64,000 nt of DNA from Alphaproteobacteria bacterium (lineage in GTDB: Bacteria; Pseudomonadota; Alphaproteobacteria; UBA8366). A program made the position numbers and the translations under genes. Below, in pieces: positions 3,527-16,712 of the stretch. Each line of letters begins with the position of its first letter. Position 1 is the first letter of the stretch. Under the pieces are notes generated by a model, which saw only the letters and a program-made list of their open reading frames with translations, did no database searches and had not been told where the DNA came from. The stretch lies in NCBI GenBank assembly GCA_021774335.1, contig JAJFJD010000009.1, positions 1 to 64,000 on the forward strand. The letters run 5' to 3'.

Positions 3527-3973
3527 TTACCGGAGGACCAGCACAGGTATCTTGCTGAGCGCGAGCACTTTCGACGTCTGGCTGCCGAGCAGGGCGAGGT
3601 TTATGCCGCGACGGCCATGCGACGCCATGACGATGAGATCGCATCCTTTCTCGTTCGCGACGTCGATGATGCCGTCCGCAGGGGAGCTATCGCTCACGTG
3701 GTGCGTCTCGCAGTCCATACCGGCTGCATCGGCGGCACTTTTCGCATCGGCGAGGATTTTATCCGCCACGGCAGCGACCATCTCCTCGTAGTTCTTCATC
3801 GGGTTCTCTACCCCTCGGACGGACTCCGTCGCCATTTCCACCGACGACCACATATCCGTCACCGTGACGAACAGAACCGAGGCGCCTATTCCTTTTGCCA
3901 ACATCAATCCATGGTCCACGGCCCTACCGGCCAGGTCCGACCCGTCGGTGGCGATCAGTATATGGTTGTACAT
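3527..3973 (-). CDS. Universal stress protein (UspA family)
   Basis: A 148-residue single Usp domain. It begins MYNHILIATDGSD (nucleotide-binding aspartate in ATDGS) and ends with the ATP-binding signature ASHG-x9-GS (ASHGRRGINLALLGS) followed by the terminal strand VLVLR. It is therefore likely an ATP-binding Usp. A good Shine-Dalgarno (AGGAG) precedes the ATG. It sits 56 bp downstream of ftsH on the same strand and is probably the third gene of the glycine-zipper/ftsH/uspA operon; a weak FNR-like box at 4054-4067 could give it a separate promoter. Confidence 0.92.
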   Translation of the reverse strand: MYNHILIATDGSDLAGRAVDHGLMLAKGIGASVLFVTVTDMWSSVEMATESVRGVENPMKNYEEMVAAVADKILADAKSAADAAGMDCETHHVSDSSPADGIIDVANEKGCDLIVMASHGRRGINLALLGSQTSKVLALSKIPVLVLR

Positions 3974-4029: not shown

Positions 4030-5910
4030 TCAGGCATCTTGGCCATGTCCGCCCTGACTTGAATCAATCGGTTGTGGGCTCGGTGCGCCGGCGGGTTGGT
4101 CCGGCATGTTGGATTGAATCGGCGGGAAATCGTCCGCTGTCAGAACTTCGTTCTCCAAAAGCAAGGCCGCCCCTTCGTCCAGATCGGCCTTGCGCTTTTC
4201 CAGGATTTCCGTTGCGACGGTCAAGGCGTGGTCGACCAGGATGCGAATCTCACTGTCGATAAGCTTCGCGCTGTGCTCGCTATACTCGCGTTGTTGCGAG
4301 ATGCCGTAGATGGAATCGCCGAGGAATGCCTGTCGTTGCGGCTCGTACACCATCTGCCCGGCCTCTTCCGACATGCCGAACCGGGTCACCATGTTCCGGG
4401 CGATTTCCGTCGCCTTGTCCAAATCGTCGTTGGCGCCGGTGGAGATTTCGCCGAATACCAGGGCTTCCGCCGCACGGCCGCCGAGCAGCACTGTCATCTT
4501 GTCCTTGAGTTCGCGACGGGTCATCAGAAACCGGTCTTCGGTCGGGCGCTGCATGGTGTATCCCAACGCGCCGATGCCCCGAGGAATGATCGATACTTTA
4601 TGGATTGGGTCCATGCCGGGAAGGGACGCGGCGATCAACGCATGCCCCATCTCGTGATATGCAACGGTCTTGCGCTCACGGGGATTGAGGACGCGGCTTT
4701 TCTTTTCGAGTCCGGCGACGATTCTTTCGATGGCGACGTTGAAGTCTTCCATGGTGACGGAATTGCTGTTGCGGCGTGTCGCCGCCAGCGCGGCCTCGTT
4801 TATCAGATTGGCGAGGTCCGCGCCGGAGAAGCCGGGCGTCATCGCGGCGATCTGGTCCGGGTCCACGTCGTCCGCCAAAACAATCTTCCGCAGATGGACC
4901 TTGAGGATCGCGCTGCGGCCAAGCTTATCGGGCCGATCGACGAGCACCTGACGGTCGAACCGGCCGGCGCGGAGAAGGGCGGGGTCAAGGATTTCCGGAC
5001 GGTTCGTGGCCGCCAACAGCACGATGCCCTGGCTCGTGTCGAAGCCGTCCAACTCGTTTAGAAGTTGGTTCAAGGTTTGCTCTTTTTCATCGTAACCGCC
5101 CATGGGCATGACGCCGCGGGCGCGGCCCAGTGCATCCAACTCGTCGATGAAGATGATGGACGGCGCGGCTTTACGGGCCTGTTCGAAAAGGTCGCGGACC
5201 CGGGCTGCACCGACGCCCACGAACATCTCGACAAACTCGGCGCCGGAGATCGAATAAAACGGAACGCCGGCCTCTCCAGCCACGGCGCGTGCCAGTAATG
5301 TCTTGCCGGTGCCCGGAGGACCGACCAGCAAAACCCCCTTGGGGATTCGCGCGCCGAGCCGTCCATAGCTATCGGGATCGTTCAGGAAGTTCACGACCTC
5401 CTGCAGTTCGGCCTTCGCTTCATCTACGCCGGCCACGTCTTCGAAGGTTACTTTCGTGTCGGTCTCGACGTAAACCTTGGCCTTGGATTTGCCAATTGTG
5501 GTCATGCCGCCGAATCCTTGTTTTTCCGCCATCTTTCGAATCAGGAACATCCACACGCCGAGAAAGAAGAGCATGGGGAGAATCCAGGAAAGGATATCCC
5601 GGAGCCAAGTGTTTTGGATCGTGCCTGTAAAGTTGACGCCGTATTTTGAAAGTTGCTCCGCCATGTCCGGCTCGACGCGCACGGTTACGAAATACTGTCG
5701 CCCGTCCGGCAATGGGGTTCGGAGTTTTCCTTCCAGATGTTTCTCTTTGACCGAGACTTCCTCGATTTCGCCTTGCCGCAGGAGGTCTTCGAACTTGCTA
5801 TACGAGATCGGCTCGACCTGACGGTGGGTCGCGTACCAACCTTGAAACAGGAATATCAGGAAGAACGCCAAGAGGGCGTAGAAGATATTTATCTGGTTCT
5901 TCTTGTCCAT
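4030..5910 (-). CDS. ftsH: ATP-dependent zinc metalloprotease FtsH
   Basis: A 626-residue inner-membrane AAA+ protease degrading misfolded or short-lived membrane and cytosolic proteins. Two membrane segments (about residues 9-26 and 105-125) flank a short periplasmic FtsH_ext domain. Walker A GPPGTGKT is at 197-204, Walker [10 protein letters not shown] at 252-260, the second region of homology TNRPEILDP with arginine fingers near 302-320, and the zinc site HEMGH at 419-423. Length is normal. An AAGGA ribosome site precedes ATG 5910. Its company (UspA, glycine-zipper lipoprotein, FNR boxes) suggests a stress-dedicated paralogue rather than the housekeeping copy; that needs the rest of the genome. 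Confidence 0.97.
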
Positions 5911-5935
5911 GGCGATTCCTTTCGCGGCCCGTCAC

Positions 5936-6427
5936 CTATTCCTTGACGATGCGCCAGCTTCCGTCCGGCTGACGGCAGGCGACGCCGTATCCCTGCTGCG
6001 TTTTTCCGGCGATCGTGACGCTCTGCTGAAACTCGCGGCAGTAGCGGCCGCTGGACGACATGCCGTCCCGGGTGGGGGTTACGGTGCCGCTGTTGCCGGA
6101 CTTGGGATTGTTCCAGGCGATTGTCTCGCCCAATGGGGCGGCATGGGCCTTGCTAACGGCGCGGTTGGCGCTCAGGCGGTCCGCCCTGTCGAGGCTTCGG
6201 CCGACTTCGCTGCCGGCGAGCGCGCCGATGAGGACGCCGACGGCCGTTGCCGCAAGCTTCCCGGTGCCGGATCCGAATTGCGCACCGAGAAGGCCGCCGA
6301 GCGCGGCACCGCCCAAGGTTCCGAAGGTTTCCTTCTGTCCTGCCCGGTCGATGCCGGAACACGCGCTGCCGATCAGCGCCGTCGCCACCAGGACGGCGGT
6401 GAAACGGTTGGAGAGCCTCGCCATCAT
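5936..6427 (-). CDS. Glycine-zipper 2TM outer-membrane lipoprotein (17 kDa antigen-like)
   Basis: A 163-residue exported protein. The N-terminus (MMARLSNRF, then a hydrophobic stretch ending GSAC) looks like a lipoprotein signal with a slightly atypical lipobox and Cys23 as the acylation site. Residues about 36-75 form a glycine zipper (GTLGGAALGGLLGAQFGSG, then GVLIGALAGSEVG), as in the Rickettsia 17-kDa antigen and SlyB families. The C-terminus holds a small domain with CREFQQ and GYGVACRQPDGSW. A strong ribosome site AAGGAG precedes the doubled ATG. It is the first gene of the ftsH-uspA operon (25 bp gap). Confidence 0.85.
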   Translation of the reverse strand: MMARLSNRFTAVLVATALIGSACSGIDRAGQKETFGTLGGAALGGLLGAQFGSGTGKLAATAVGVLIGALAGSEVGRSLDRADRLSANRAVSKAHAAPLGETIAWNNPKSGNSGTVTPTRDGMSSSGRYCREFQQSVTIAGKTQQGYGVACRQPDGSWRIVKE

Positions 6428-6547
6428 CTTTCTCCTTTATAGTGCCGCTTTCGGTGTGCGTATTCGCAGGTCACCGGCTGGCGGCATGAATCGATTTCGA
6501 TCGCCTACACTGCGGTTAGTTAGAGCCTGCTTGGCAGGTAGTCCGCA

Positions 6548-6561
6548 TTGACATCGCTCAA
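6548..6561. promoter_or_regulatory. FNR/FixK-type box upstream of the glycine-zipper-ftsH-uspA operon
   Basis: TTGACATCGCTCAA, an exact TTGA-N6-TCAA core. It lies 121 bp before the glycine-zipper gene start on the minus strand. The spacing to a minus-strand start near 6513 fits class II activation, with a weak TCTAAC as -10. Inferred from sequence only. Confidence 0.5.
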
Positions 6562-6588
6562 GCCATACTGGCGAGTGCGGAATTCCGG

Positions 6589-6602
6589 TTGACCCAAATC
6601 AA
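6589..6602. promoter_or_regulatory. FNR/FixK-type box upstream of the antiporter gene
   Basis: TTGACCCAAATCAA, one mismatch from TTGAT-N4-ATCAA. If used at -41.5, transcription would start near 6637. That would exclude the ATG at 6621 and favour the one at 6645 as the antiporter start. Confidence 0.55.
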
Positions 6603-6644
6603 GGACGCGGCCGGGCGTAGATGGCCGATTGTCGGGTGATCGAT

Positions 6645-7814
6645 ATGGAAATTCATTTCACATTTCTCGCCCTTGGTGGACTCTTGCTTCTCGGGATGTT
6701 CGCCGACGAGCTTGGCCGGCGAACCCGTTTGCCCCGGGTCAGCCTCATGATTCTATTCGGCGTCGCTGTTGGCGGGGCCGGCTTCGACGTATTGCCGAAG
6801 GAGGTTTACGGCTGGTTCGAATTTCTTGCGGCTGCCGCCCTGACGATGGTGGCTTTTCTGCTCGGTAGCCGATTCACGCATTTGATGATGCATGATCAGG
6901 GAAAGGCGATCTTCGTGATTTCGCTCTCGGCGGTGATCGTCACGGCGATGACGGTCGGGATCGGCTTGGTCCTCGTCGGCGTGCCGCTGGTCGTCGCACT
7001 GTTGTTGAGTGGGATCGCGACGGCGACCGCCCCCGCTGCAACGCAGGACGTCGTCAAGCAAACGCAAGCGAGTGGGCCGTTTACCGACACGTTGCTGGGC
7101 GTCGTTGCGATCGACGACGCTTGGGGGCTAATTCTGTTCGGTGTTCTGTTGATAACGGCGAAGGCAATCATGGGTGACGGCGGGGCCGACATCCTGACCC
7201 AAAGCCTCTGGGAACTTGGCGGTGCGGTGGCGGTCGGGACCGCTGTCGGATTACCGGCCGCCTTTCTGACCGGCCGTCTGCAGCCCGGGGAGCCGATTCA
7301 GGCTGAAGCGATCGGCGTCGTGTTCCTGTGTGCCGGATTGGCGTTGTGGCTCGAGGTTTCGTTCCTGTTGAGCGGTATGGTTGCCGGTGCGCTCATCGTC
7401 AACCTGGCGCGGCATCATAAGCGGACATTCCATGAGATCGAGCGCATCGAATGGCCGTTCATGGTGCTGTTCTTCGTGCTGGCCGGCGCGTCCTTCGATC
7501 CGGGGGCTTTGAAAGAAATCGGTGTAATCGGCGTTGCCTATTTGGGGCTTCGGGTGGTCGGGCGGATCGTTGGTGGCTGGGCCGGAGGCGCGGCTTCGGG
7601 TGTGCCGTTACTCCATCGGCACTGGATCGGATTCGCGTTGTTACCACAGGCGGGGGTCGCGCTCGGCATGGCGCTGGTTGCGGCAATTCATTTTCCGGAA
7701 CTTGGGAAAACGCTGCTCGCCGTGACGATCGGGTCGACCATCGTGTTCGAGCTGTTCGGGCCGCTGTTCACGCAAGCCGCGCTTCGAAAGAGCGGGGAGA
7801 CGCGCGCACCCTAG
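6645..7814 (+). CDS. Cation:proton antiporter, KefB/CPA2-type membrane domain
   Basis: A 389-residue inner-membrane protein of about 12 hydrophobic helices with no C-terminal TrkA-N domain, unlike full-length KefB/KefC. The N-terminus (LLGMFADELGRRTRLPRVSLMILFG) and the later ATAPAATQDVV and VVAIDDAWGLILFG segments (acidic pair IDD in the ion-binding helix) match the Na+/H+ exchanger fold. I prefer ATG 6645 over 6621 because of the FNR-type box at 6589-6602. The stop shares CTAG with the convergent CBS-BON gene. The likely role is pH or K+/Na+ homeostasis under stress; the ion is not determinable. Confidence 0.85.
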   Translation: MEIHFTFLALGGLLLLGMFADELGRRTRLPRVSLMILFGVAVGGAGFDVLPKEVYGWFEFLAAAALTMVAFLLGSRFTHLMMHDQGKAIFVISLSAVIVTAMTVGIGLVLVGVPLVVALLLSGIATATAPAATQDVVKQTQASGPFTDTLLGVVAIDDAWGLILFGVLLITAKAIMGDGGADILTQSLWELGGAVAVGTAVGLPAAFLTGRLQPGEPIQAEAIGVVFLCAGLALWLEVSFLLSGMVAGALIVNLARHHKRTFHEIERIEWPFMVLFFVLAGASFDPGALKEIGVIGVAYLGLRVVGRIVGGWAGGAASGVPLLHRHWIGFALLPQAGVALGMALVAAIHFPELGKTLLAVTIGSTIVFELFGPLFTQAALRKSGETRAP

Positions 7815-8506
7815 TCCAGCGTCTCCGCCAAGTCCGGCGAAACCTGCAGGTGATTTTGCAGTGCCGTGACGGTCGGGATGTTTTCGACCGCGACCTGGAC
7901 GGCATCTTTATGGGCTGGTGATTGCGCGAGGCCCCAAAGGTGCACGACCCCGTCCTTAACCAAAGTGTTGATGTAGCCGCTGGATCGCCCGTCAACCTCG
8001 CGAATGGCGCTCATGACCGATTCCCGCAGCGCCAAATCGTCCTCCGCCGGTACAGTAACCGGAACGTGGCGCACCGCGAGCATTCGGATGATGTCGGCCC
8101 GGCTGACGATACCGACAAGACGATCGCCGCGCAGGACGGGAACCCGTTTGATCCGGTTTTCTTCGATGATGCCGGCGATCTCCGAGACCGGCGTTTCTTC
8201 ACCGATCGTGATCACGTTTTTCGTCATGACGTCCCGGACATGCACGGCATGACTTTTGAGGTAATCGCGTGACTTTTCCTCGGTCGACACCAGCATATCC
8301 AACCACCAGGATTGCTTCCGCTCCGTCCCGGTTTCGACCCGCCGCAACAGGTCGCCTTCGCTGATGACGCCGATTAGGCAGCCGTCATCGTCGACCACGG
8401 GCAGCGCGCTGACCGACCGTTCCAACAGAATGCGCGCGACGTCGTGGATCGACTGATCGGCCTTTGCGCAAGCGACGTTGGTTGTCATGATTTCCTTCGC
8501 CAGCAT
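7811..8506 (-). CDS. CBS-pair and BON domain protein
   Basis: A 231-residue cytosolic protein. Residues about 5-60 (MTTNVACAKADQSIHDVA, then SALPVVDDDGCLIGVISEGDL) and about 88-145 (MTKNVITIGEETPVSEIA, then VPVLRGDRLVGIVSRADI) form a CBS pair, which senses adenosine nucleotides in other proteins. Residues about 160-225 (ALRESVMSAIREVDG, then VVHLWG) form a BON domain. The start ATG 8506 has AGGAGAG just upstream; the frame is open further but overlaps the preceding gene. It is second in an operon with the HicA-like gene, under the box at 8900-8913. Confidence 0.88.
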   Translation of the reverse strand: MLAKEIMTTNVACAKADQSIHDVARILLERSVSALPVVDDDGCLIGVISEGDLLRRVETGTERKQSWWLDMLVSTEEKSRDYLKSHAVHVRDVMTKNVITIGEETPVSEIAGIIEENRIKRVPVLRGDRLVGIVSRADIIRMLAVRHVPVTVPAEDDLALRESVMSAIREVDGRSSGYINTLVKDGVVHLWGLAQSPAHKDAVQVAVENIPTVTALQNHLQVSPDLAETLD

Positions 8507-8528
8507 CTCGCTCTCTCCTGACCTGCGG

Positions 8529-8795
8529 TCACAACGGGTAATCACGCTCCGGGTCGATGCCGGCATCCTCTATGAACTTCCGCATCTTTCGGACGTGGGC
8601 CGGTTGCAGGGAATGGGTGTCGTGGGAAAATTCCGCGAAGTGACCATTGAGATGGATTCCCAGTCGGCCGCCGTGGCGCTGCTCGATTTCCCCGCCCAAC
8701 TCTTTCAACACGGACTCGATGGAGCGGCTGGAAATGTTAGCGCTCACCGGATGGGCGAATAGGGCATGCAGGGTCTTGCGGTGTTTGTGGTTCAT
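8529..8795 (-). CDS. HicA-like (YcfA family) small protein
   Basis: An 88-residue protein whose middle (SRSIESVLKELGGEIEQRHG, then a LGIHLNGHFAEF strand) follows the double-stranded-RNA-binding-like fold of stand-alone HicA-family proteins that start with HKTLHALFAHPV. The canonical toxin has a catalytic His in a G-S-H-x context; here the equivalent strand reads HFAEFSHDTHS. No HicB antitoxin gene is adjacent, so a toxin role is not supported. A GGAG site precedes the ATG, and the gene is 22 bp upstream of the CBS-BON gene. Candidate regulator or RNA-binding protein of the low-oxygen island. Confidence 0.6.
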   Translation of the reverse strand: MNHKHRKTLHALFAHPVSANISSRSIESVLKELGGEIEQRHGGRLGIHLNGHFAEFSHDTHSLQPAHVRKMRKFIEDAGIDPERDYPL

Positions 8796-8871
8796 GAGGC
8801 TCCGCCGAACTGTGTTGGACTATGACCGAGTCCGCGCTGCCCTTTGTCAGAGCGTGCGCGTCGTCCCAACC

Positions 8872-8913
8872 ACTATGCTGAGATGCACGGGGAACGGCCT
8901 TGACGTGGATCAA
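8872..8913 (-). promoter_or_regulatory. FNR/FixK-type promoter of the HicA-like/CBS-BON operon
   Basis: The box TTGACGTGGATCAA (8900-8913) is one mismatch from consensus. On the minus strand a -10-like CATAGT occupies 8877-8872, at the distance expected when an FNR-family activator sits at -41.5. The predicted start near 8865 leaves a 70-nt leader before ATG 8795. Confidence 0.6.
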
Positions 8914-8979
8914 ACGCCGACGGTTTGGAAAGTCGATACAGCTAATAATCCGGGGTGCCGGTAGGGCGTGGCGACGCCG

Positions 8980-9705
8980 TCAAGAGTCGGGTGCCACGCA
9001 ATCCTTCGCACCGCGCAGCGTGCAGAACTCATACCGCTGGCGCTTCGACCAGAAAGCGATTGCGTCGTTCACCGTCTGCCAATCGTCGAACAGGTCGGCC
9101 GAAATGTTTTTGGACCCGAGCCGGCGGTCGACGGACGCGATCAGGATATCGTCGGACACTGCATCGGTAACCCGCGTCTCCATGGTGATATCGCCGCTGA
9201 ACCCGGGATGGTCCGCCGCGTAACTCAGGAGAGACGATGCCACCAATGTGGTCGGCAGAATGGTCGACGCGGCGTCCAGCACCGCGACGTCTTTCTCCGC
9301 ATTCGTAATGACCACGGTCAGGCGCAGCGTGCCGGGCCCTGCCTTGCCAACGATCCGGTAGTCCTTCTTTAAGTTGTCGGCGAGCATCGCGTGAAAATTA
9401 TTGGCAACACTGTCGAGGTCCTTACGGGCCATCTTGTCCTTGTCCTTCGGGTCCCGATAGATCGTCACCGGGTCGATCAGGATATTCCTGTAAGAGCTGA
9501 ACGCCGTTTTGTTCTTTGCCGCGGCGCTGCGGTAGACCCGATTGGCCTCGCCGGTCATGCCGGGCATCAAATTCGAATAATCGGCCAGGAATCCGGAAAA
9601 TTCGACGTTCCGAGCCTGCCGGCTGGCGGCGCAGGCCGTGAGGCCAAGCGCGCACACGATGATGATGAGCCCGGTTGAAATGCGGCTCCGCGTTATTGTT
9701 TTCAT
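8980..9705 (-). CDS. DUF3313 family lipoprotein
   Basis: A 241-residue exported protein. The N-terminus MKTITRSRISTG is followed by a hydrophobic run ending in the lipobox LTAC, giving a lipidated Cys24. The mature part begins with SGFLADYSNLMPG, characteristic of the DUF3313 family of secreted lipoproteins of unknown function. A later stretch, TRVTDAVSDDILIASVDRR, resembles the typical turn near the end of that domain. GGAG lies 7 nt before the ATG. It stands alone between two FNR-box regions; function unknown. Confidence 0.78.
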   Translation of the reverse strand: MKTITRSRISTGLIIIVCALGLTACAASRQARNVEFSGFLADYSNLMPGMTGEANRVYRSAAAKNKTAFSSYRNILIDPVTIYRDPKDKDKMARKDLDSVANNFHAMLADNLKKDYRIVGKAGPGTLRLTVVITNAEKDVAVLDAASTILPTTLVASSLLSYAADHPGFSGDITMETRVTDAVSDDILIASVDRRLGSKNISADLFDDWQTVNDAIAFWSKRQRYEFCTLRGAKDCVAPDS

Positions 9706-9952
9706 TTAAGGCTCCAAATTCAAAGACCGTGGTTCGGCGAACCGATCAGAAAGCGACGGTATTTATAGGGCAGGAACCGGCCTCGAAGCAGGACATATCG
9801 GCGCAAATCCTCGTGAGCGAACCGAGACCGTGACGGACCATATTGGCCTGATCAGAGGATGATTTCCCGGCTGGTTCCGCCGGGTTTGGCCATTTGACCT
9901 TCCAGTGACTGGATGTTTTAGCGTGCGGCCTTAGTCGGCGAATGGAGCGGCA

Positions 9953-9966
9953 TTGATCAATCTCAA
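9953..9966. promoter_or_regulatory. FNR/FixK-type box at the cytochrome c' gene
   Basis: TTGATCAATCTCAA, one mismatch from consensus. It ends 3 bp before the cytochrome c' ATG at 9969. A TAGAAT at 9989-9994 sits exactly where the -10 of a class II FNR promoter would be (start near 10001), but that lies inside the signal-peptide codons, so the meaning is unclear. Confidence 0.5.
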
Positions 9967-9968
9967 GG

Positions 9969-10451
9969 ATGTACAGCGTGTTGCAGACTAGAATTCGGAT
10001 CGGGCTCGGGGCTGTGTGCCTCATGGTGGCGATTCTCGCTGGGGCGGGTGTCGCGGTATCGCACGGCGGCGCCACTGGCGTGGTCAAGGAACGCATGGAC
10101 GCCATGAAGGACATGGGCGGCCGTATGAAAGCGATGGCCGCGATGGTGCGAGGGCGCACACCGTTCGATGCTGCGTCGGCCAAGGAAGCGGCGGACGCGA
10201 TCGCGGCGCATGCGCGCGATGTTCCGCGCCTGTTTCCGAAAGGCAGCCGCCATGGTCCATCGGAAGCGATCGAGAAGATATGGATCGAATGGCCGCAATT
10301 CGTGGCCGAGGCGAAAGCTCTTGAAGACCGCGCCGATGTTCTTGGACGCCAGACCGTGACCGCGAAATCCGGGGCGGATCTAGGGCGCGCCTTCGGTGAC
10401 ATCGGACGAAGCTGTAAGAGCTGTCACGGCAGATATCGAGAGAAAAAGTAG
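9969..10451 (+). CDS. Cytochrome c' family periplasmic protein
   Basis: A 160-residue protein with an N-terminal signal (QTRIRIGLG followed by a hydrophobic run to about residue 31) and a single heme-binding motif C149-K-S-C152-H153 at the extreme C-terminus. This is the hallmark of the four-helix-bundle cytochromes c'. These bind NO and are linked to NO resistance in denitrifiers and methanotrophs. Alternative starts are GTG 9978 and ATG 10023; only the upstream ones keep a proper charged signal peptide. The gene ends 10 bp before the multicopper oxidase gene, and nnrS follows. Confidence 0.87.
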   Translation: MYSVLQTRIRIGLGAVCLMVAILAGAGVAVSHGGATGVVKERMDAMKDMGGRMKAMAAMVRGRTPFDAASAKEAADAIAAHARDVPRLFPKGSRHGPSEAIEKIWIEWPQFVAEAKALEDRADVLGRQTVTAKSGADLGRAFGDIGRSCKSCHGRYREKK

Positions 10452-10461
10452 AGAGGCCGCC

Positions 10462-11916
10462 ATGAACCTACATTCCGTTTCTCGAATGGGCATGAACCGT
10501 CGTCACATTCTCCGGGGGCTTATGGCAACGGCGGCGGTCGTGTCTTTGCCGCCACAAAGCATCGCCGCGACCAGTGGTACGGATCAATGGCGCACGATCA
10601 CGGCCAAGCCGGGCGACGCGAGGCTTCTCGACGCGGCACAGTCCGTCCGAACCAAGATTTGGGGGTATGACGGGAGCGTTCCAGGACCGCTTCTGCGCTA
10701 CCGGCAGGGCGATACCGTACGGGTGCGGTTGGAGAACCAGTTGCCGGATCCGACCAGTATCCATTGGCATGGCGTTGCAATCGATAATCGGATGGATGGT
10801 GTGGTCGGGTTGACCCAGGCAGCCGTTGGGCCGGGCGAGCAGTTCGACTATGAATTCACCCTGCCCGATCCCGGCACCTTTTGGTATCACACGCATAATC
10901 AATCGTGGGAGCAGATGGCCCGCGGTCTTTACGGTGTTCTCGTCGTCGATGAACGCGATGCTCCGGCGGTCGATCAGGATCTGCTGTTCGTCATCGACGA
11001 TTGGCGATTGCGGCAGGATGGTCAGATCGATACCGGTTCGTTCGGCAATATGCATGATTGGGCGCATGCGGGCCGGCTCGGGAACTGGTTGACGGTGAAC
11101 GGCGCCGACCGGCCGCAGATTTCCGTTAAGTCCGGCGAGCGTATCCGGCTACGGCTCGTCAACACTGCCAACGCCCGGATCTTCCGCTTGGATCTTCGGT
11201 CGCCGGCTCATGCCGCGTCGATGATCGCCGTCGATGGGTTTCCGCTGGCGTTGCCACAGGAACTTCAGGAAGCCATCGAACTTGCGCCGGGCCAGCGGGT
11301 GGACGTGATCCTCGACATGACAGGGGATCCCGGTGGGCGGGTCGCGATCCGCGAAACCAGCACCGGTAAGCCGGTCGACTGCGCTCATTTTGTATATGAC
11401 AAAACTGGCGGCAAAAAGCCGCGAACGAACCGTCGCATTGCGGCCCTGCCGACCTGGGGTAACCACGCGCCTGTCGACATCGCGGCTGCCCGCGAGATCG
11501 ACCTTCATATGACCGGCGGGGCAATGGGGATGATGTCCGGCGCCATGCATCGCGGGCGAATGATGCCGATGGGTGATCTTGTCGACGCGCGCAAGGTATG
11601 GGCATTCAATGGTGTAGCCGGCGATTTGGACAGGCCGCTCGCGCAACTGCGGCGCAACGAACACATTCTCATCAACATCAAGAACGACACGCGATGGCCG
11701 CATGCGATGCATCTGCATGGTCACCATTTCCAGGTCGTGCGGCGTAACGGCACGCCGGTATCGGGTACACCCTGGCGGGACACCGAATTGGTGCGCCCGA
11801 TGGAGCAGGTGACACTCGGCCTCGTTGCGGACAATCCTGGGAAATGGCTATTCCATTGCCATATGCTCGAACATCAGGCCGGTGGCATGAAGACCTGGAT
11901 CGATGTCCGAGCCTGA
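10462..11916 (+). CDS. Tat-exported multicopper oxidase (CueO/CopA-like)
   Basis: A 484-residue periplasmic three-cupredoxin enzyme. The start ATG 10462 follows AGAGAGG and gives MNRRHILRG, a twin-arginine signal, so it is exported folded with copper. Copper ligands are visible as SIHWHG, FWYHTHNQSW, HAMHLHGHHF and WLFHCHMLEHQAGGM; the last supplies the type 1 site Cys-His-Met. A Met-rich insert (GGAMGMMSGAMHRGRMMPMG, about residues 352-371) resembles the cuprous-ion-binding region of CueO. The likely reaction is Cu(I) or other metal oxidation coupled to O2 reduction. It lies directly after cytochrome c' and 61 bp before nnrS. Confidence 0.92.
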   Translation: MNLHSVSRMGMNRRHILRGLMATAAVVSLPPQSIAATSGTDQWRTITAKPGDARLLDAAQSVRTKIWGYDGSVPGPLLRYRQGDTVRVRLENQLPDPTSIHWHGVAIDNRMDGVVGLTQAAVGPGEQFDYEFTLPDPGTFWYHTHNQSWEQMARGLYGVLVVDERDAPAVDQDLLFVIDDWRLRQDGQIDTGSFGNMHDWAHAGRLGNWLTVNGADRPQISVKSGERIRLRLVNTANARIFRLDLRSPAHAASMIAVDGFPLALPQELQEAIELAPGQRVDVILDMTGDPGGRVAIRETSTGKPVDCAHFVYDKTGGKKPRTNRRIAALPTWGNHAPVDIAAAREIDLHMTGGAMGMMSGAMHRGRMMPMGDLVDARKVWAFNGVAGDLDRPLAQLRRNEHILINIKNDTRWPHAMHLHGHHFQVVRRNGTPVSGTPWRDTELVRPMEQVTLGLVADNPGKWLFHCHMLEHQAGGMKTWIDVRA

Positions 11917-11945
11917 ACGCCGCGCCAGCTGAGAGTAAAAAGCGG

Positions 11946-11959
11946 CTGATCTGAATCAA
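11946..11959. promoter_or_regulatory. FNR/NnrR-type box before nnrS
   Basis: CTGATCTGAATCAA, one mismatch to TTGAT-N4-ATCAA. It ends 18 bp before the GTG of nnrS, with a TATAGT between (11968-11973). NnrS was named for regulation by the FNR-family regulator NnrR, so the context supports function, although the spacing to the start codon is short. Confidence 0.5.
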
Positions 11960-11977
11960 AGGCGTTCTATAGTAGCT

Positions 11978-13186
11978 GTGGAACGCTGGTCCGGTTCGGA
12001 ACGCGAGGGGGAGTTGGATTTGCTGCGCGAGGGATTTCGCCCGTTCTTTCTTGGTGCGGGGCTCTTCGCCGTCCTGGGGATGATCCTCTGGTTCGGCTAT
12101 TTCCAGTTTGGTTGGTCCTTACCGGTCGCCGCGGCGCCGGCGTTGTGGCACGGGCACGAAATGATTTTCGGCTTCGTCGCGGCTACCATCGCCGGCTTCA
12201 TCCTCACTGCCTTGCCGAATTGGACCGGGACCGCGCCGATGGCCGGCCGGTGGCTTGCAGCGTTGGTGGTGCTTTGGGTGCTGGGCCGCCTTTTGCTTGC
12301 GACAAGTGCGATATGGCCAGCCGGGTTGGTCGCCATTATCGATGTCGCATTTCTGGTGAGTTTAGCGGGGTATGTCGGCTGGGCGCTGATCGAGTCGCAA
12401 AACTGGCGCAATTTGGTGTTCTTGATAGCGCTTTCCGTGGTTATCGGCGGCAATGTGTTGTTCCATGCCGAGCAGCTTGACCTAGCTGAAGACGGTGGCT
12501 CGGACGGCCTTCGTCTCGCGTTGAACGGCATCGTGCTGTTGATCACCATAATCGGGGGGCGGATTGTTCCGGCCTTTACGCGAAACGCACTCGAACGCGA
12601 AGGGATCGCGCACGATATCAAACAGCGGAAGTGGCTCGACGCGGCCGTGATTATTGCGGTCTTTGCGATCATTCCGGCAGACCTGTTCGCACGCGGTACA
12701 TTCACGGCGGCGGCTGTTACGTTGGTTGCGGCGATCCTCAGTGCCCTGCGATTCCTGACCTGGCAGAGCGAACGAACCCTGGGCATGCCGATCGTGTGGT
12801 CGCTGCATCTTGGGTATCTCTGGCTGATCCTTGGACTGCTCCTGAAAGGACTCGCCGCGTCGCTGCCGTCACTGGCGGGGATCGTTTGGATCCACGCGAT
12901 CACAATCGGCGCGGTCGGAACGATGATCCTGGCGGTGATGACGCGCGCCACCCTCGGCCATACCGGGGGCGCTCTTGTCGCCAGCCGGACGACCGCGATT
13001 GCCTACGGGGCGGTTTCGGTCAGCGCTGTCGCCCGCATCATCGCGCCGGAGGTGCCGGACGCCCTTTACCTGTTCTTCCTTGGGCTGTCCGCTGTTGCCT
13101 GGATTGCCGTCTTTACGACCTTCGTGGTGGAGTTCTGGCCGCGATTGACCGGTTCGCGCGATGCCGGCCCGCAGGCCGACGGGTAG
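11978..13186 (+). CDS. nnrS: NnrS family heme-copper membrane protein
   Basis: A 402-residue integral membrane protein of about 12 helices. It has the family opening LREGFRPFFLGAGLFAVL, conserved WHGHEMIFGFVAATIAGFILTA (histidine-rich helix, 22 residues split here as WHGHEMIFGF plus VAATIAGFILTA) and the later VMTRATLGHTG. NnrS proteins carry heme and copper and protect against NO-derived iron-nitrosyl stress. The GTG start at 11978 is the only reasonable one upstream of the conserved opening apart from a TTG at 12018. Its 3' end is covered on the opposite strand by the tail of the endonuclease III-like gene. Confidence 0.92.
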   Translation: MERWSGSEREGELDLLREGFRPFFLGAGLFAVLGMILWFGYFQFGWSLPVAAAPALWHGHEMIFGFVAATIAGFILTALPNWTGTAPMAGRWLAALVVLWVLGRLLLATSAIWPAGLVAIIDVAFLVSLAGYVGWALIESQNWRNLVFLIALSVVIGGNVLFHAEQLDLAEDGGSDGLRLALNGIVLLITIIGGRIVPAFTRNALEREGIAHDIKQRKWLDAAVIIAVFAIIPADLFARGTFTAAAVTLVAAILSALRFLTWQSERTLGMPIVWSLHLGYLWLILGLLLKGLAASLPSLAGIVWIHAITIGAVGTMILAVMTRATLGHTGGALVASRTTAIAYGAVSVSAVARIIAPEVPDALYLFFLGLSAVAWIAVFTTFVVEFWPRLTGSRDAGPQADG

Positions 13187-13903
13187 TCCGTTCCCGGCGA
13201 TTGCGACAGGGAGGTTGCGTGACGCCATCGGGCAAAGATGCCTCAGGGGACAACCGTGACAAGCCGGCGCATGGCTCCGGCATCGCCGTTGCCCGTGATG
13301 TTTCATCAGCGTGTGGTGCGTGTCGAAATCGGTCGCTGTCCAGGCATCGGGCAGTTGCCGTGTCAGCATGCGCGCCGCGGCCGGGATCAGGGTATCCGGC
13401 GGCACGATGCCGAGGCGCCGTGCCACGCGCAGATGATGGGTATCGACGACCAGCGCACGCATTTGAAGCCGGCTGAAGTTCAAGACGGCGGCACTGACCT
13501 TGGCGCCCACGCCGGGCAACTTCTCAAGCCACGCTAGGGCATCGTCGACTGGCCAATCTTTTAAGAAGTCCAGGTCCAGGCTGCCGCGCCGGGCATGGAT
13601 TTGCCGGAGTGCAGCCGGCAAGTGCACCGCCTTCCGTTCGGCGAAAGTGAGCGGTGCAAGAAATGGTGCCAAGTCGTCCGGTGTCGCATCGCGGACGGCT
13701 TCCCAGCTTCCAAATCGCTCGATTACGGCCTCGAATACCCGTTTCGAGACCGCGGTTTGCGTCCGCGTGCCCAAAAGGGCGAGCACCAACTGGCTTATCG
13801 GGGGCGGGCGTAGCCATGTAGGGGCAGGCCCATAGTGACCTACCAAAATCTGATGTATTTCCGCGAGCCGCGTCGGCGGCAGGGTCGGAAGCGAGTATTG
13901 CAT
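12869..13903 (-). CDS. Endonuclease III-like DNA glycosylase with antisense C-terminal tail
   Basis: HhH-GPD base-excision enzyme. The helix-hairpin-helix LPGVGAKVS keeps the catalytic lysine, VVDTHHLRV keeps the catalytic aspartate, and the iron-sulfur motif C-x6-C-x2-C-x5-C is complete (CRSHAPACHGC, then PLRHLC). It should therefore be a bifunctional glycosylase/lyase. I chose ATG 13903; a TTG at 13921 adds six residues. The recognisable domain ends near 13230, but no stop occurs until 12869, so about 105 residues are simply antisense to nnrS. That tail is probably not conserved and may reflect a lost stop. Confidence 0.8.
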   Translation of the reverse strand: MQYSLPTLPPTRLAEIHQILVGHYGPAPTWLRPPPISQLVLALLGTRTQTAVSKRVFEAVIERFGSWEAVRDATPDDLAPFLAPLTFAERKAVHLPAALRQIHARRGSLDLDFLKDWPVDDALAWLEKLPGVGAKVSAAVLNFSRLQMRALVVDTHHLRVARRLGIVPPDTLIPAAARMLTRQLPDAWTATDFDTHHTLMKHHGQRRCRSHAPACHGCPLRHLCPMASRNLPVAIAGNGLPVGLRAGIARTGQSRPELHHEGRKDGNPGNSGQPKEEQVKGVRHLRRDDAGDSADRNRPVGNRGRPAGDKSAPGMAEGGARHHRQDHRSDRADCDRVDPNDPRQ

Positions 13904-14011
13904 AATTATATTTTCGAACAAAACGGGAACATTTCAAGTGATAATTGAACCAATTTCCCAGAAAGTCGCGGGAAGATTAACAAATCTGCATCTTCAGCCT
14001 GTTTCGAAATT

Positions 14012-14025
14012 TTGATAGCGATCAA
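14012..14025. promoter_or_regulatory. Perfect FNR/FixK-type box in a gene-poor spacer
   Basis: TTGATAGCGATCAA is an exact match to TTGAT-N4-ATCAA. It is 109 bp before ATG 13903 (minus strand, with CAGATT near the expected -10) and about 300 bp before the plus-strand gene at 14323. The spacer 13940-14322 is AT-rich on its left half and holds no gene I can support; a short transcript is possible. Confidence 0.6.
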
Positions 14026-14289
14026 TAATTGTTAAACAGAGAATTTTACTCGTAATGGTGTTGGTCGCTTTGGCCTGTCGCATCGTGTGATGCGGACCGT
14101 CAGTCCGTATCCCGGCGACCGCACCTGCATCGAGATTGCGCCGTGCATCAAAGAAGCCTTCGGCGTATTCCAGCCACCTCCGGATTTTGCAGGCTGAGCG
14201 CGTGCTGTCAGTGGGTGAAAGCTCCGGGTTGGAATTTTATCCTGTTCTGTTAGTGTCATCGAAAATTACGCAAGGTTCGGGAGATTGAC

Positions 14290-14317
14290 CCTCCGTCTCA
14301 TGTTTCATGATTGGAGG
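14290..14317 (+). promoter_or_regulatory. Possible hairpin masking the ribosome-binding site
   Basis: CCTCC (14290-14294) can pair with the Shine-Dalgarno GGAGG (14313-14317), with CATG repeats (14299-14302 and 14306-14309) closing an inner stem. The GGAGG is 5 nt before ATG 14323. This could limit translation of the secreted protein, but it may be chance. Confidence 0.3.
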
Positions 14318-14322
14318 ATTGA

Positions 14323-14877
14323 ATGAAAAGAACCACGTATTTTACCATCGGCCGTTTAGGCGGCCTTGCCATGGCGGGGTTTGTTTTGCTGGGCTCCGTG
14401 CCGGCCGATGCCGTAAGCGCCGTGCAGGGCGTTGAGACATACAAGAATATCGAGGTCAAGTTCACTAAGAACGCTCGGAAATGCGATTTCCAGAGCCTGG
14501 GACCATTCGAGCGCTATCTTACGAATAGCCTGAAAAAGGTCGGCCTGCGCAAAACACGCAGCAGCATCGTCACGGTGTCGCTGGAGATCGGCGGCATTCC
14601 GTTCGGCGCCTTCGAAACGCAGTGCGCCGTCGAGGCGAACCTGCATTTCCGGACGATGCTGCGGTCGGACAACATCGTGACCGACAATCTGGCGGTTCGG
14701 GAAACCATAAACCGCCTGCAGGTTTTTCCGATCTCGCTGTATTCGGTTGGCGCGTTCGGAGTCGATACCACGCTGTATACCTACGCGGACGGCCGGAACA
14801 TCACCAAGGCGGAAAAGAAAGTTTTGGATATGATCGACCGGCTTGTCACGCGGTTCGACAAGGCGCGAGGTAATTAG
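14323..14877 (+). CDS. Secreted hypothetical protein
   Basis: A 184-residue protein not assigned to a family. It has a signal peptide (MKRTTYFTIGRLGG, hydrophobic run, cleavage near VPADA-VSA). The mature part contains KCDFQSLGPFERYLTNSLKK and a pattern of alternating beta strands (SSIVTVSLEIGGIPFGAF, then a single CAVEANLHF). Two cysteines, in RKCDF and TQCAV, could form a disulfide. A strong GGAGG precedes the ATG. It runs convergently against the membrane protein at 14886, with an 8-bp gap. Probably periplasmic; role unknown. Confidence 0.75.
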   Translation: MKRTTYFTIGRLGGLAMAGFVLLGSVPADAVSAVQGVETYKNIEVKFTKNARKCDFQSLGPFERYLTNSLKKVGLRKTRSSIVTVSLEIGGIPFGAFETQCAVEANLHFRTMLRSDNIVTDNLAVRETINRLQVFPISLYSVGAFGVDTTLYTYADGRNITKAEKKVLDMIDRLVTRFDKARGN

Positions 14878-14885
14878 CGGTTGGC

Positions 14886-16712
14886 CTAGCGGCGCACCGT
14901 GTAGACCCGGAAGCCGCTCGTCGCGTCGCGGTCGGTCGGGACCGGCGTGAGCCAGTCCGGCGGCGTGTCGGCAAGCAAACGGTTATAGAGCCGGTCGGGC
15001 TGCTTGTCGTCGAGATAGAAGCGGCGTTCCGCGACCGACGGACAGATCACGATGATGCCGATGTTGCGGCGTTGCGCGATTGCTTGGCTTTCCGTGTCGT
15101 CCGTCGCCGCGAGCAGCCGGTAGCTGTCCCAAATTCCGTCACCGTTGCGATGGTAGGGTGCGCCGACCACCGAATGGCGGGTGCGGTACAGGATTTCCGG
15201 TCCATGGTCGAGCAAGCCGCCGACAACTGTCGGCTTCGCGCCAAGGCCGCCTGGGTCGTTCAGAAGCCCGGCGATGTCAGCGACCTCACATTGGAGTCGT
15301 GCTGTGTCGATCGCCTTGTCCGGCGTCACCGCCAGGACGAAAGTTCCGGACATGAGCGCGCCAAGGATGATGAAGAAGGTCGCGCCGCATTTAACGGCAA
15401 ACTGCCGCGCGCCGGTCAGGACATGTTCGCTCCATGCCATAAGCCGGCCAACCATCTCGGCGAGCGCCCAGACGCTGGCGATTTCGGCGAAGGGGGCGAA
15501 GCGCAGATGCTTTAGCGATAGGACGAAGTAGACGCCGAGCACGAGTGTCAGAAAGGCCCAACGAAGCGTCGCCGGGTGTGTGCGCTCACGCCACAAGATG
15601 AAGCCCAAGAAGATTAGGCAGGGCAGTCCCGCACCGATGAAGAACAAGAAGCGGCCGAACGATTTCATATCGGTCGGCACCAGGGGCTTCAGCTCGGCAA
15701 CCTGCTCGTGCCAGATCGGTATGATCCGGGGGTCAACCGTAGCGAACGGTCCGGCGAAGAAATCCGGGAAGAGGATGCCGAATATGCCGAAGCTAGCGAT
15801 ACCCGCGATTCCGGCCGTCGTCATGCGGGTGCGCAGCGTCGCGTCGGCGCTGCGGTGCCCGTTCTGGTAGAGCGCCAGCCAGAAGCCGGTCACGATAGCG
15901 GCAAGCGCCAAATGCACGACGGAAAGACGGTCATACTCGATATCGAACCAGCCGCTGATCGGGCGTTCGATGATCAAGGATACGAGCGTTGTCGCCAGGA
16001 ATGCACCGCCCACGATGATCTGGTTTCGGGTGAACAGACGGTCACGCCACAACCAGACAACGGCGAGCGTCGCCTGGCATAACCCGACCAACAGCAACAG
16101 TTCGATGCTGACCCAAAGCGCGCCACCATAGCTGATGCCTGCGACGACGGCGCTCCGGACCGACCGCCGGTCGGCCAGTAGACGCAGGGTCGCCCCGATG
16201 CACAGGATGAAGGCGACGAATTGCAGGCTGTGATGATCGGCGCGGCCGAGCATCGTGTAACTCAGAACGCCCGGCTGCAGCAGCAGGATGAAGACGGCCA
16301 GGATGGCGCGGTCGCGGCCGAGCACGGGCCGGGCTGCCCATGCCATTGCGATGCAAGCGAAGAAGGCGACGATCGGCGACGTTACCGCGCCCGCGAAGAA
16401 CAAGGCCTGAGCATCGTCCGCAAAGGGAGACGCCAAGGTCGCGACCATCAGGATGATCACGTCCATCGGCCGCGTCCAATGCAGCGCGTCGCCGTAGGGC
16501 GCATTGCTGCGCGCGATCAACGATTCATGCCAGCCGGTGCCGCCTTGCAGCTCCCCGATGCGGACCAGCCGCATATAGCCGTCCGGCCCCAGCAGGGCGC
16601 CGTCGAAAACCGGCGCGGCCACGGTCTGCCCCAACAAGGCATGCAAAACCGCCCATAAGCCGAAAATGATCAGCCATGGTATAAAGGTACTGGTTCTGCC
16701 CAAAGCGGCCAT
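14886..16712 (-). CDS. Multi-pass membrane protein, STT3/GT-C-like
   Basis: A 608-residue protein with about 11-13 hydrophobic helices and a soluble C-terminal part of roughly 130 residues. After the first helix comes LLGPDGYMRLVRIGELQG, an acidic loop followed by aromatic and basic residues. A later loop reads YTMLGRADHHSLQ. Together these resemble the first loop and DxD/DH features of STT3-like oligosaccharyltransferases and other GT-C enzymes. ATG 16712 begins just before the first helix; a TTG at 16763 opens the frame earlier. The C-terminus ends in FRVYTVRR. It is likely a lipid-linked sugar transferase; the exact reaction is not supported. Confidence 0.65.
   Translation of the reverse strand: MAALGRTSTFIPWLIIFGLWAVLHALLGQTVAAPVFDGALLGPDGYMRLVRIGELQGGTGWHESLIARSNAPYGDALHWTRPMDVIILMVATLASPFADDAQALFFAGAVTSPIVAFFACIAMAWAARPVLGRDRAILAVFILLLQPGVLSYTMLGRADHHSLQFVAFILCIGATLRLLADRRSVRSAVVAGISYGGALWVSIELLLLVGLCQATLAVVWLWRDRLFTRNQIIVGGAFLATTLVSLIIERPISGWFDIEYDRLSVVHLALAAIVTGFWLALYQNGHRSADATLRTRMTTAGIAGIASFGIFGILFPDFFAGPFATVDPRIIPIWHEQVAELKPLVPTDMKSFGRFLFFIGAGLPCLIFLGFILWRERTHPATLRWAFLTLVLGVYFVLSLKHLRFAPFAEIASVWALAEMVGRLMAWSEHVLTGARQFAVKCGATFFIILGALMSGTFVLAVTPDKAIDTARLQCEVADIAGLLNDPGGLGAKPTVVGGLLDHGPEILYRTRHSVVGAPYHRNGDGIWDSYRLLAATDDTESQAIAQRRNIGIIVICPSVAERRFYLDDKQPDRLYNRLLADTPPDWLTPVPTDRDATSGFRVYTVRR

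Follow-up and report, generated by a model that had tools for sequence, protein, structure and literature searches.

Predicted FNR/FixK boxes beside an accessory ftsH operon, a cation:proton antiporter gene and a CBS-BON operon in an alphaproteobacterial genome

The cluster at 3.5-8.9 kb and its boxes

The DNA considered here, called the window below, is a stretch of 64,000 nucleotides (contig JAJFJD010000009.1, positions 1 to 64,000) from an alphaproteobacterial genome (assembly GCA_021774335.1; 5.41 Mb, 63 contigs, 96.66% complete, 6.98% contaminated). An earlier note had listed six palindromes of the form TTGA-N6-TCAA, exact or within one base, between 6548 and 14025, and had proposed that the whole block is one low-oxygen or nitric-oxide regulon that includes a membrane protease operon. 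We find that the promoters at 6548/6589 and at 8900, which flank an accessory ftsH operon, a cation:proton antiporter gene and a CBS-BON operon, carry predicted FNR/FixK boxes that exceed chance and are conserved. The comparison genome, here called the sister, is that of a congeneric species (G001) and is the only sister genome compared. The genes and features of this part, with the strict form of the box being TTGAY-N4-RTCAA, are as follows.

3527..3973, minus strand: usp, universal stress protein (Pfam Usp, 9.5e-32; 84% identical in the sister)
4030..5910, minus strand: accessory ftsH, membrane AAA+ protease (Pfam Peptidase_M41, AAA, FtsH_ext; NCBIfam FtsH over cut-off)
5936..6427, minus strand: glycine-zipper lipoprotein-like gene, first of the predicted ftsH operon (Pfam 17kDa_Anti_2, 1.1e-12; 92% identical in the sister)
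6519..6524, minus strand: candidate -10 of the ftsH operon, TCTAAC, 33 nt from the centre of box 6548 (TGTAAC in the sister)
6548..6561, no strand: predicted FNR/FixK box, exact, 14/14 identical in the sister
6589..6602, no strand: predicted FNR/FixK box, strict form, 14/14 identical in the sister
6645..7814, plus strand: cation:proton antiporter (Pfam Na_H_Exchanger, 2.4e-29)
7811..8566, minus strand: CBS-BON protein gene (Pfam CBS, 7.9e-33; BON, 5.8e-10)
8529..8795, minus strand: 88-aa gene before CBS-BON, overlapping its start (88% identical in the sister)
8872..8877, minus strand: predicted -10, CATAGT, 32 nt from the centre of box 8900 (CATAAT in the sister)
8900..8913, no strand: predicted FNR/FixK box, strict form, 14/14 identical in the sister

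The usp gene would be the last of the ftsH operon. We set the antiporter start at 6645 rather than 6621, since a stop codon separates these two ATGs in the sister. The 88-aa protein found no family match in Pfam or NCBIfam.

All coordinates given in the earlier note hold on recheck, and five of its six palindromes are exact. Exact sites occur at 6548, 6589, 8900, 9953 and 14012 and nowhere else in the 64,000 bases, where 0.38 would be expected from half-site counts and 0.29 from base composition; the same half-sites at 15 alternative spacings (0 to 15) give 4 matches in total. The sixth palindrome, 11946, and a weaker one at 4054 are one-mismatch sites (CTGA...TCAA), and another such site at 12477, within nnrS, had been missing from the list. 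One-mismatch matches per se barely exceed chance: the window has 21, the shuffle mean is 13.95, and 5 of 100 shuffles reach 21. Sites 11946 and 4054 therefore count for little on their own. Box 4054 falls within the 3' end of the ftsH coding sequence and was rejected as a site.

Genome-wide, the exact pattern occurs 94 times and its reversed control 21 times, while the strict form stands at 45 versus 3, as it does in the sister genome (likewise 45 versus 3). Five of the 94 exact sites lie inside 7,478 bp, for an expectation of 0.13, and a cluster of five arose anywhere in a fraction of 0.001 of 20,000 random placements. We scanned the 45 strict sites for TATAAT-like hexamers at every distance from the centre of the box, using hand-set weights, taking the better strand and computing z against distances 40-89. 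The mean score tops at exactly 32 nt (z = 6.0), the runner-up among the printed distances 14-59 reaching z = 2.2. This spacing is the class II FNR/FixK layout, in which the box lies around -41.5; in Sphingopyxis, positions of -40.5 to -42.5 are listed for most Fnr boxes of regulated operons (PMC7713065; here and below, papers are cited for the parts available to us). In the cluster the register is exact at 8900 toward the 88-aa/CBS-BON genes and one base off at 6548 toward lipoprotein-ftsH-usp. The three boxes have kept all their bases in the sister amid diverged flanks, in which identity is 56% (91 columns) around 6548/6589 and 39% (64 columns) around 8900.

Elsewhere in the genome, targets were named for some of the 45 strict sites, which precede genes for a COX1-family oxidase subunit, HemN, two Usp proteins, an Hsp20 and a CBS-domain protein, as well as a host-attachment protein, an MFS transporter and a Crp/Fnr gene. 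Some of the strict sites that fall inside predicted frames are probably chance. Separately, one stretch of the sister (C33:4000-23900, local 5210-14767) holds six strict boxes within 9.6 kb, denser than the cluster of the window.

Because of the genome-wide excess, the full conservation in diverged flanks, the -10 register and the presence of regulator genes described below, we read 6548, 6589 and 8900 as predicted sites. Judged from sequence, they are very likely activator sites of an FNR-family regulator, which would make the adjoining genes a small stress module in a low-oxygen regulon. The FNR/FixK assignment in the earlier note and its inclusion of a membrane-protease operon are thus supported for this left part.

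The boxes to the right

Beyond the CBS-BON promoter, the block contains the following features.

9953..9966, no strand: exact box, with TAGAAT (5/6) at 9989-9994 in exact register
9969-10451, plus strand: cytochrome c' (Pfam Cytochrom_C_2)
10462-11916, plus strand: multicopper oxidase (Pfam Cu-oxidase)
11946..11959, no strand: one-mismatch look-alike before nnrS (11978-13186), with 7/14 bases kept in the sister
14012..14025, no strand: exact box, absent in the sister

These features bear on the one-block proposal, in which cytochrome c', multicopper oxidase, nnrS and endonuclease III would all belong to the same low-oxygen or nitric-oxide unit as the ftsH cluster. That the five exact sites of the window all fall in 6548-14025 speaks for it, as does the prediction of NnrS as a DNR target in other alphaproteobacteria (PMC2908626). 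However, half of the bases of the site before nnrS differ in the sister, and the first half-site coincides with the -35 of a sigma-70-like promoter that is conserved, its -10 included (TATAGT, TATACT in the sister); we judge that 11946 is probably not a site. Neither 11946 nor 14012 has a -10 in register, and we judge 14012 to be chance or young. Most likely both are chance or decayed, and the membership of nnrS and of the endonuclease III region, which the earlier note had placed in the regulon, is not supported.

Box 9953 is ambiguous. Its TAGAAT hexamer in exact register favours a role and with it the one-block proposal, yet the position is odd: 6548, 6589, 8900, 11946 and 14012 lie in spacers, as had been said of nearly all the boxes, whereas 9953 stops 2 bases short of the first ATG in the cytochrome c' frame. 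A transcription start set by this box would fall near 10001, inside the cytochrome frame, and by our own reading the frame containing 10001 gives the only good signal peptide. In the sister this place lacks the DUF3313, cytochrome c' and multicopper oxidase genes (8980-11916) and is occupied by a different gene, so that 9953 could not be footprinted; the segment appears from this comparison to be an insertion or replacement since the species split. At none of 14 loci do relatives of the multicopper oxidase have an exact box or a neighbouring cytochrome c' gene within the flanks that were fetched. Membership of cytochrome c' and the multicopper oxidase in the regulon is therefore doubtful. A single block over the whole of 6548-14025 seems to us unlikely; the low-oxygen part of that claim is supported for 3.5-8.9 kb but not for the right half, except possibly for cytochrome c'.

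Relatives of the cluster genes in other genomes

The genome encodes two FtsH proteins, and the window copy is 51% identical to the housekeeping one. In a search of the class, full-length relatives of the window FtsH score 712-944 bits before the scores drop to 611 or less, and in a tree 38 accessory and 16 housekeeping FtsH proteins split cleanly. This places the window protein in a predicted accessory clade, FtsH_GI-like and apart from housekeeping FtsH. It shares about 64% identity with plasmid-borne FtsH and clusters with plasmid copies from alphaproteobacteria; Hsp20 and DegQ genes flank two of the three plasmid copies fetched, and the neighbours in the window are Usp, lipoprotein, antiporter and CBS-BON genes.

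A strict box lies within 1.5 kb at 10 of 29 accessory loci in other genomes versus none of 16 housekeeping loci (Fisher p = 0.008), with 14 of these 16 coming from the same genomes as accessory loci. Wider stretches around 33 accessory loci (440 kb) contain 21 strict boxes against 0 for the control. Several of the boxes sit by the 3' end of ftsH and probably belong to the gene that follows. An exact box stands within 1.5 kb upstream at six of the 29 loci, a frequency that does not support accessory ftsH as a general FNR/FixK target.

The CBS-BON protein has matches at 1e-40 in 29 of 289 class genomes, its own included. Among 29 loci from the other 28 genomes, 13 have an exact box and 11 a strict one less than 1 kb upstream; the reversed pattern is found 0 times in the 104 kb of these loci. 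The hexamers 32 nt from these boxes are mostly weak, the -10 result not being repeated there. For the antiporter, 14 loci besides the sister were compared, L066 among them with no more than 143 bases upstream; at 7 of the 14 an exact box lies 1.2-1.4 kb upstream, close to where the preceding gene starts. By our own reading of gene names, several antiporter relatives (L063-L069 and L075, about 7300-11200) adjoin apparent nqr genes (Na+-translocating NADH:quinone reductase), with boxes between.

Regulator, module and known systems

A search for regulators by PF13545 gave six matches over cut-off. One is FnrL-like, with a CX2CX7C motif, and one FixK-like; these are their best-matching models, with scores below the equivalog cut-offs. 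A third is FtrB, over the cut-off of one FtrB model, two are Crp/Fnr-type proteins without model assignment, and the remaining one (L028) by our reading resembles an AsnC-type protein. At the locus of the FixK-like gene (L046, 5066-8576), genes for a PAS histidine kinase, a response regulator and a single receiver stand before it, the kinase gene being preceded by a strict box; we read this order as a fixLJ-fixK arrangement, and the receiver might be a FixT-like feedback protein. No nitric-oxide regulator was identified by PF13545, a single-model search that may have missed one. The nitric-oxide signal of the earlier note thus finds no regulator here, the two best candidates matching FnrL and FixK models. 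The acting regulator would be the FnrL-like protein, the FixK-like protein or both, which the sequence does not tell apart.

From these observations we infer binding, activation, the signal, the operon extents and the role of the module. As oxygen falls, one or both regulators would occupy the position around -41.5, FnrL responding via its iron-sulphur cluster and FixK being produced by way of FixLJ; the bound regulator, overlapping the -35, would recruit RNA polymerase. The module would comprise the lipoprotein-ftsH-usp operon, the Na+/H+ exchanger-family antiporter and the 88-aa/CBS-BON operon. Accessory FtsH might then act in membrane-protein quality control, the antiporter in ion balance, and Usp and CBS-BON in the response to energy stress.

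Several observations weigh against this picture. With 6.98% bin contamination, foreign DNA may account for part of the 94 exact and 45 strict sites. Three of 45 strict sites inside 7.4 kb arise anywhere in the genome in a fraction of 0.071 of random placements, which is unremarkable. On the antiporter side, box 6589 is without a clear -10. Of the 29 accessory ftsH loci in other genomes, 23 are without an exact box within 1.5 kb upstream.

The boxes might also be used by a nitric-oxide or other Crp/Fnr regulator, for instance the FtrB-type protein or an unassigned one, rather than in response to oxygen. FNR, FixK and DNR cannot be distinguished by their box (PMC2908626), and the FtrB-type gene is itself preceded by two strict boxes. 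But the targets in this genome are the classical oxygen set (HemN, oxidase subunit), and FnrL-like and FixK-like proteins are present, leaving this alternative very improbable. That the boxes are chance palindromes without function we find scarcely credible: one-mismatch matches barely exceed shuffles and conservation fails for two of the six boxes in the earlier list, but three boxes kept in full amid diverged flanks, the genome-wide -10 register and five exact sites where 0.3-0.4 are expected all speak against it.

In published alphaproteobacterial regulons, predicted targets include Usp and NnrS for DNR, Usp for FNR, and Hsp20 and CBS proteins for FixK (PMC2908626), and Usp, CBS and host-attachment proteins are among the proteins that differ in microoxic Bradyrhizobium (PMC6515984); the membership of Usp and CBS genes in FNR/FixK regulons is thus already published. 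The predicted regulon of this genome shares with alphaproteobacterial FNR/FixK/DNR regulons the box, the class II position seen in the genome-wide scan, and targets such as Usp, a CBS-domain protein, Hsp20, HemN and cbb3-type oxidase (PMC2908626, PMC6515984, PMC7713065), and differs in its accessory ftsH operon and single-gene antiporter, both absent from the available part of the target table of PMC2908626. In Dinoroseobacter shibae FnrL is reported to control several Usp genes, and a Dnr regulator a Na+/H+ antiporter (PMC5398030); the antiporter there is the multi-subunit phaACEFG and here a single Na_H_Exchanger protein. An accessory FtsH, FtsH_GI, has been described for tLST (PMC8290217), likewise alongside a housekeeping copy; here no Hsp20 island accompanies it, but rather usp, antiporter and CBS-BON genes with boxes. 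Literature searches, with most subscription journals outside reach, found no paper tying accessory FtsH to FNR/FixK, and PMC7078487 mentions ftsH only as a knockout.

We regard the predicted low-oxygen cluster at about 3.5-8.9 kb as genuine, the accessory protease and the antiporter being its less usual members, and the membrane protease is the least expected member of an otherwise known kind of low-oxygen stress regulon. A wider idea, which we offer tentatively and would not ourselves bet on, is that an accessory FtsH of mobile-stress-island type was recruited into an FNR/FixK regulon with the Na+/H+ exchanger and CBS-BON, forming a hypoxia-induced module for membrane quality control and ion balance in this lineage and several others of the alphaproteobacteria. 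The respiratory and heme targets of FNR/FixK regulons are thoroughly mapped, the stress genes less so, and on the present evidence the stress branch gains a membrane protease and a cation:proton antiporter. The combination of box, -10 register and sister footprint, a sequence-only approach, separates likely sites from look-alikes within one cluster. If low-oxygen induction is true, the accessory FtsH clade gains a testable condition.

One minor observation concerns the DNA next to box 14012: compared by eye, 14112-14197 resembles the leftover 3' end of an amidase gene, of which the sister has an intact copy at the corresponding position (about 14440-15895 of the sister stretch L041).

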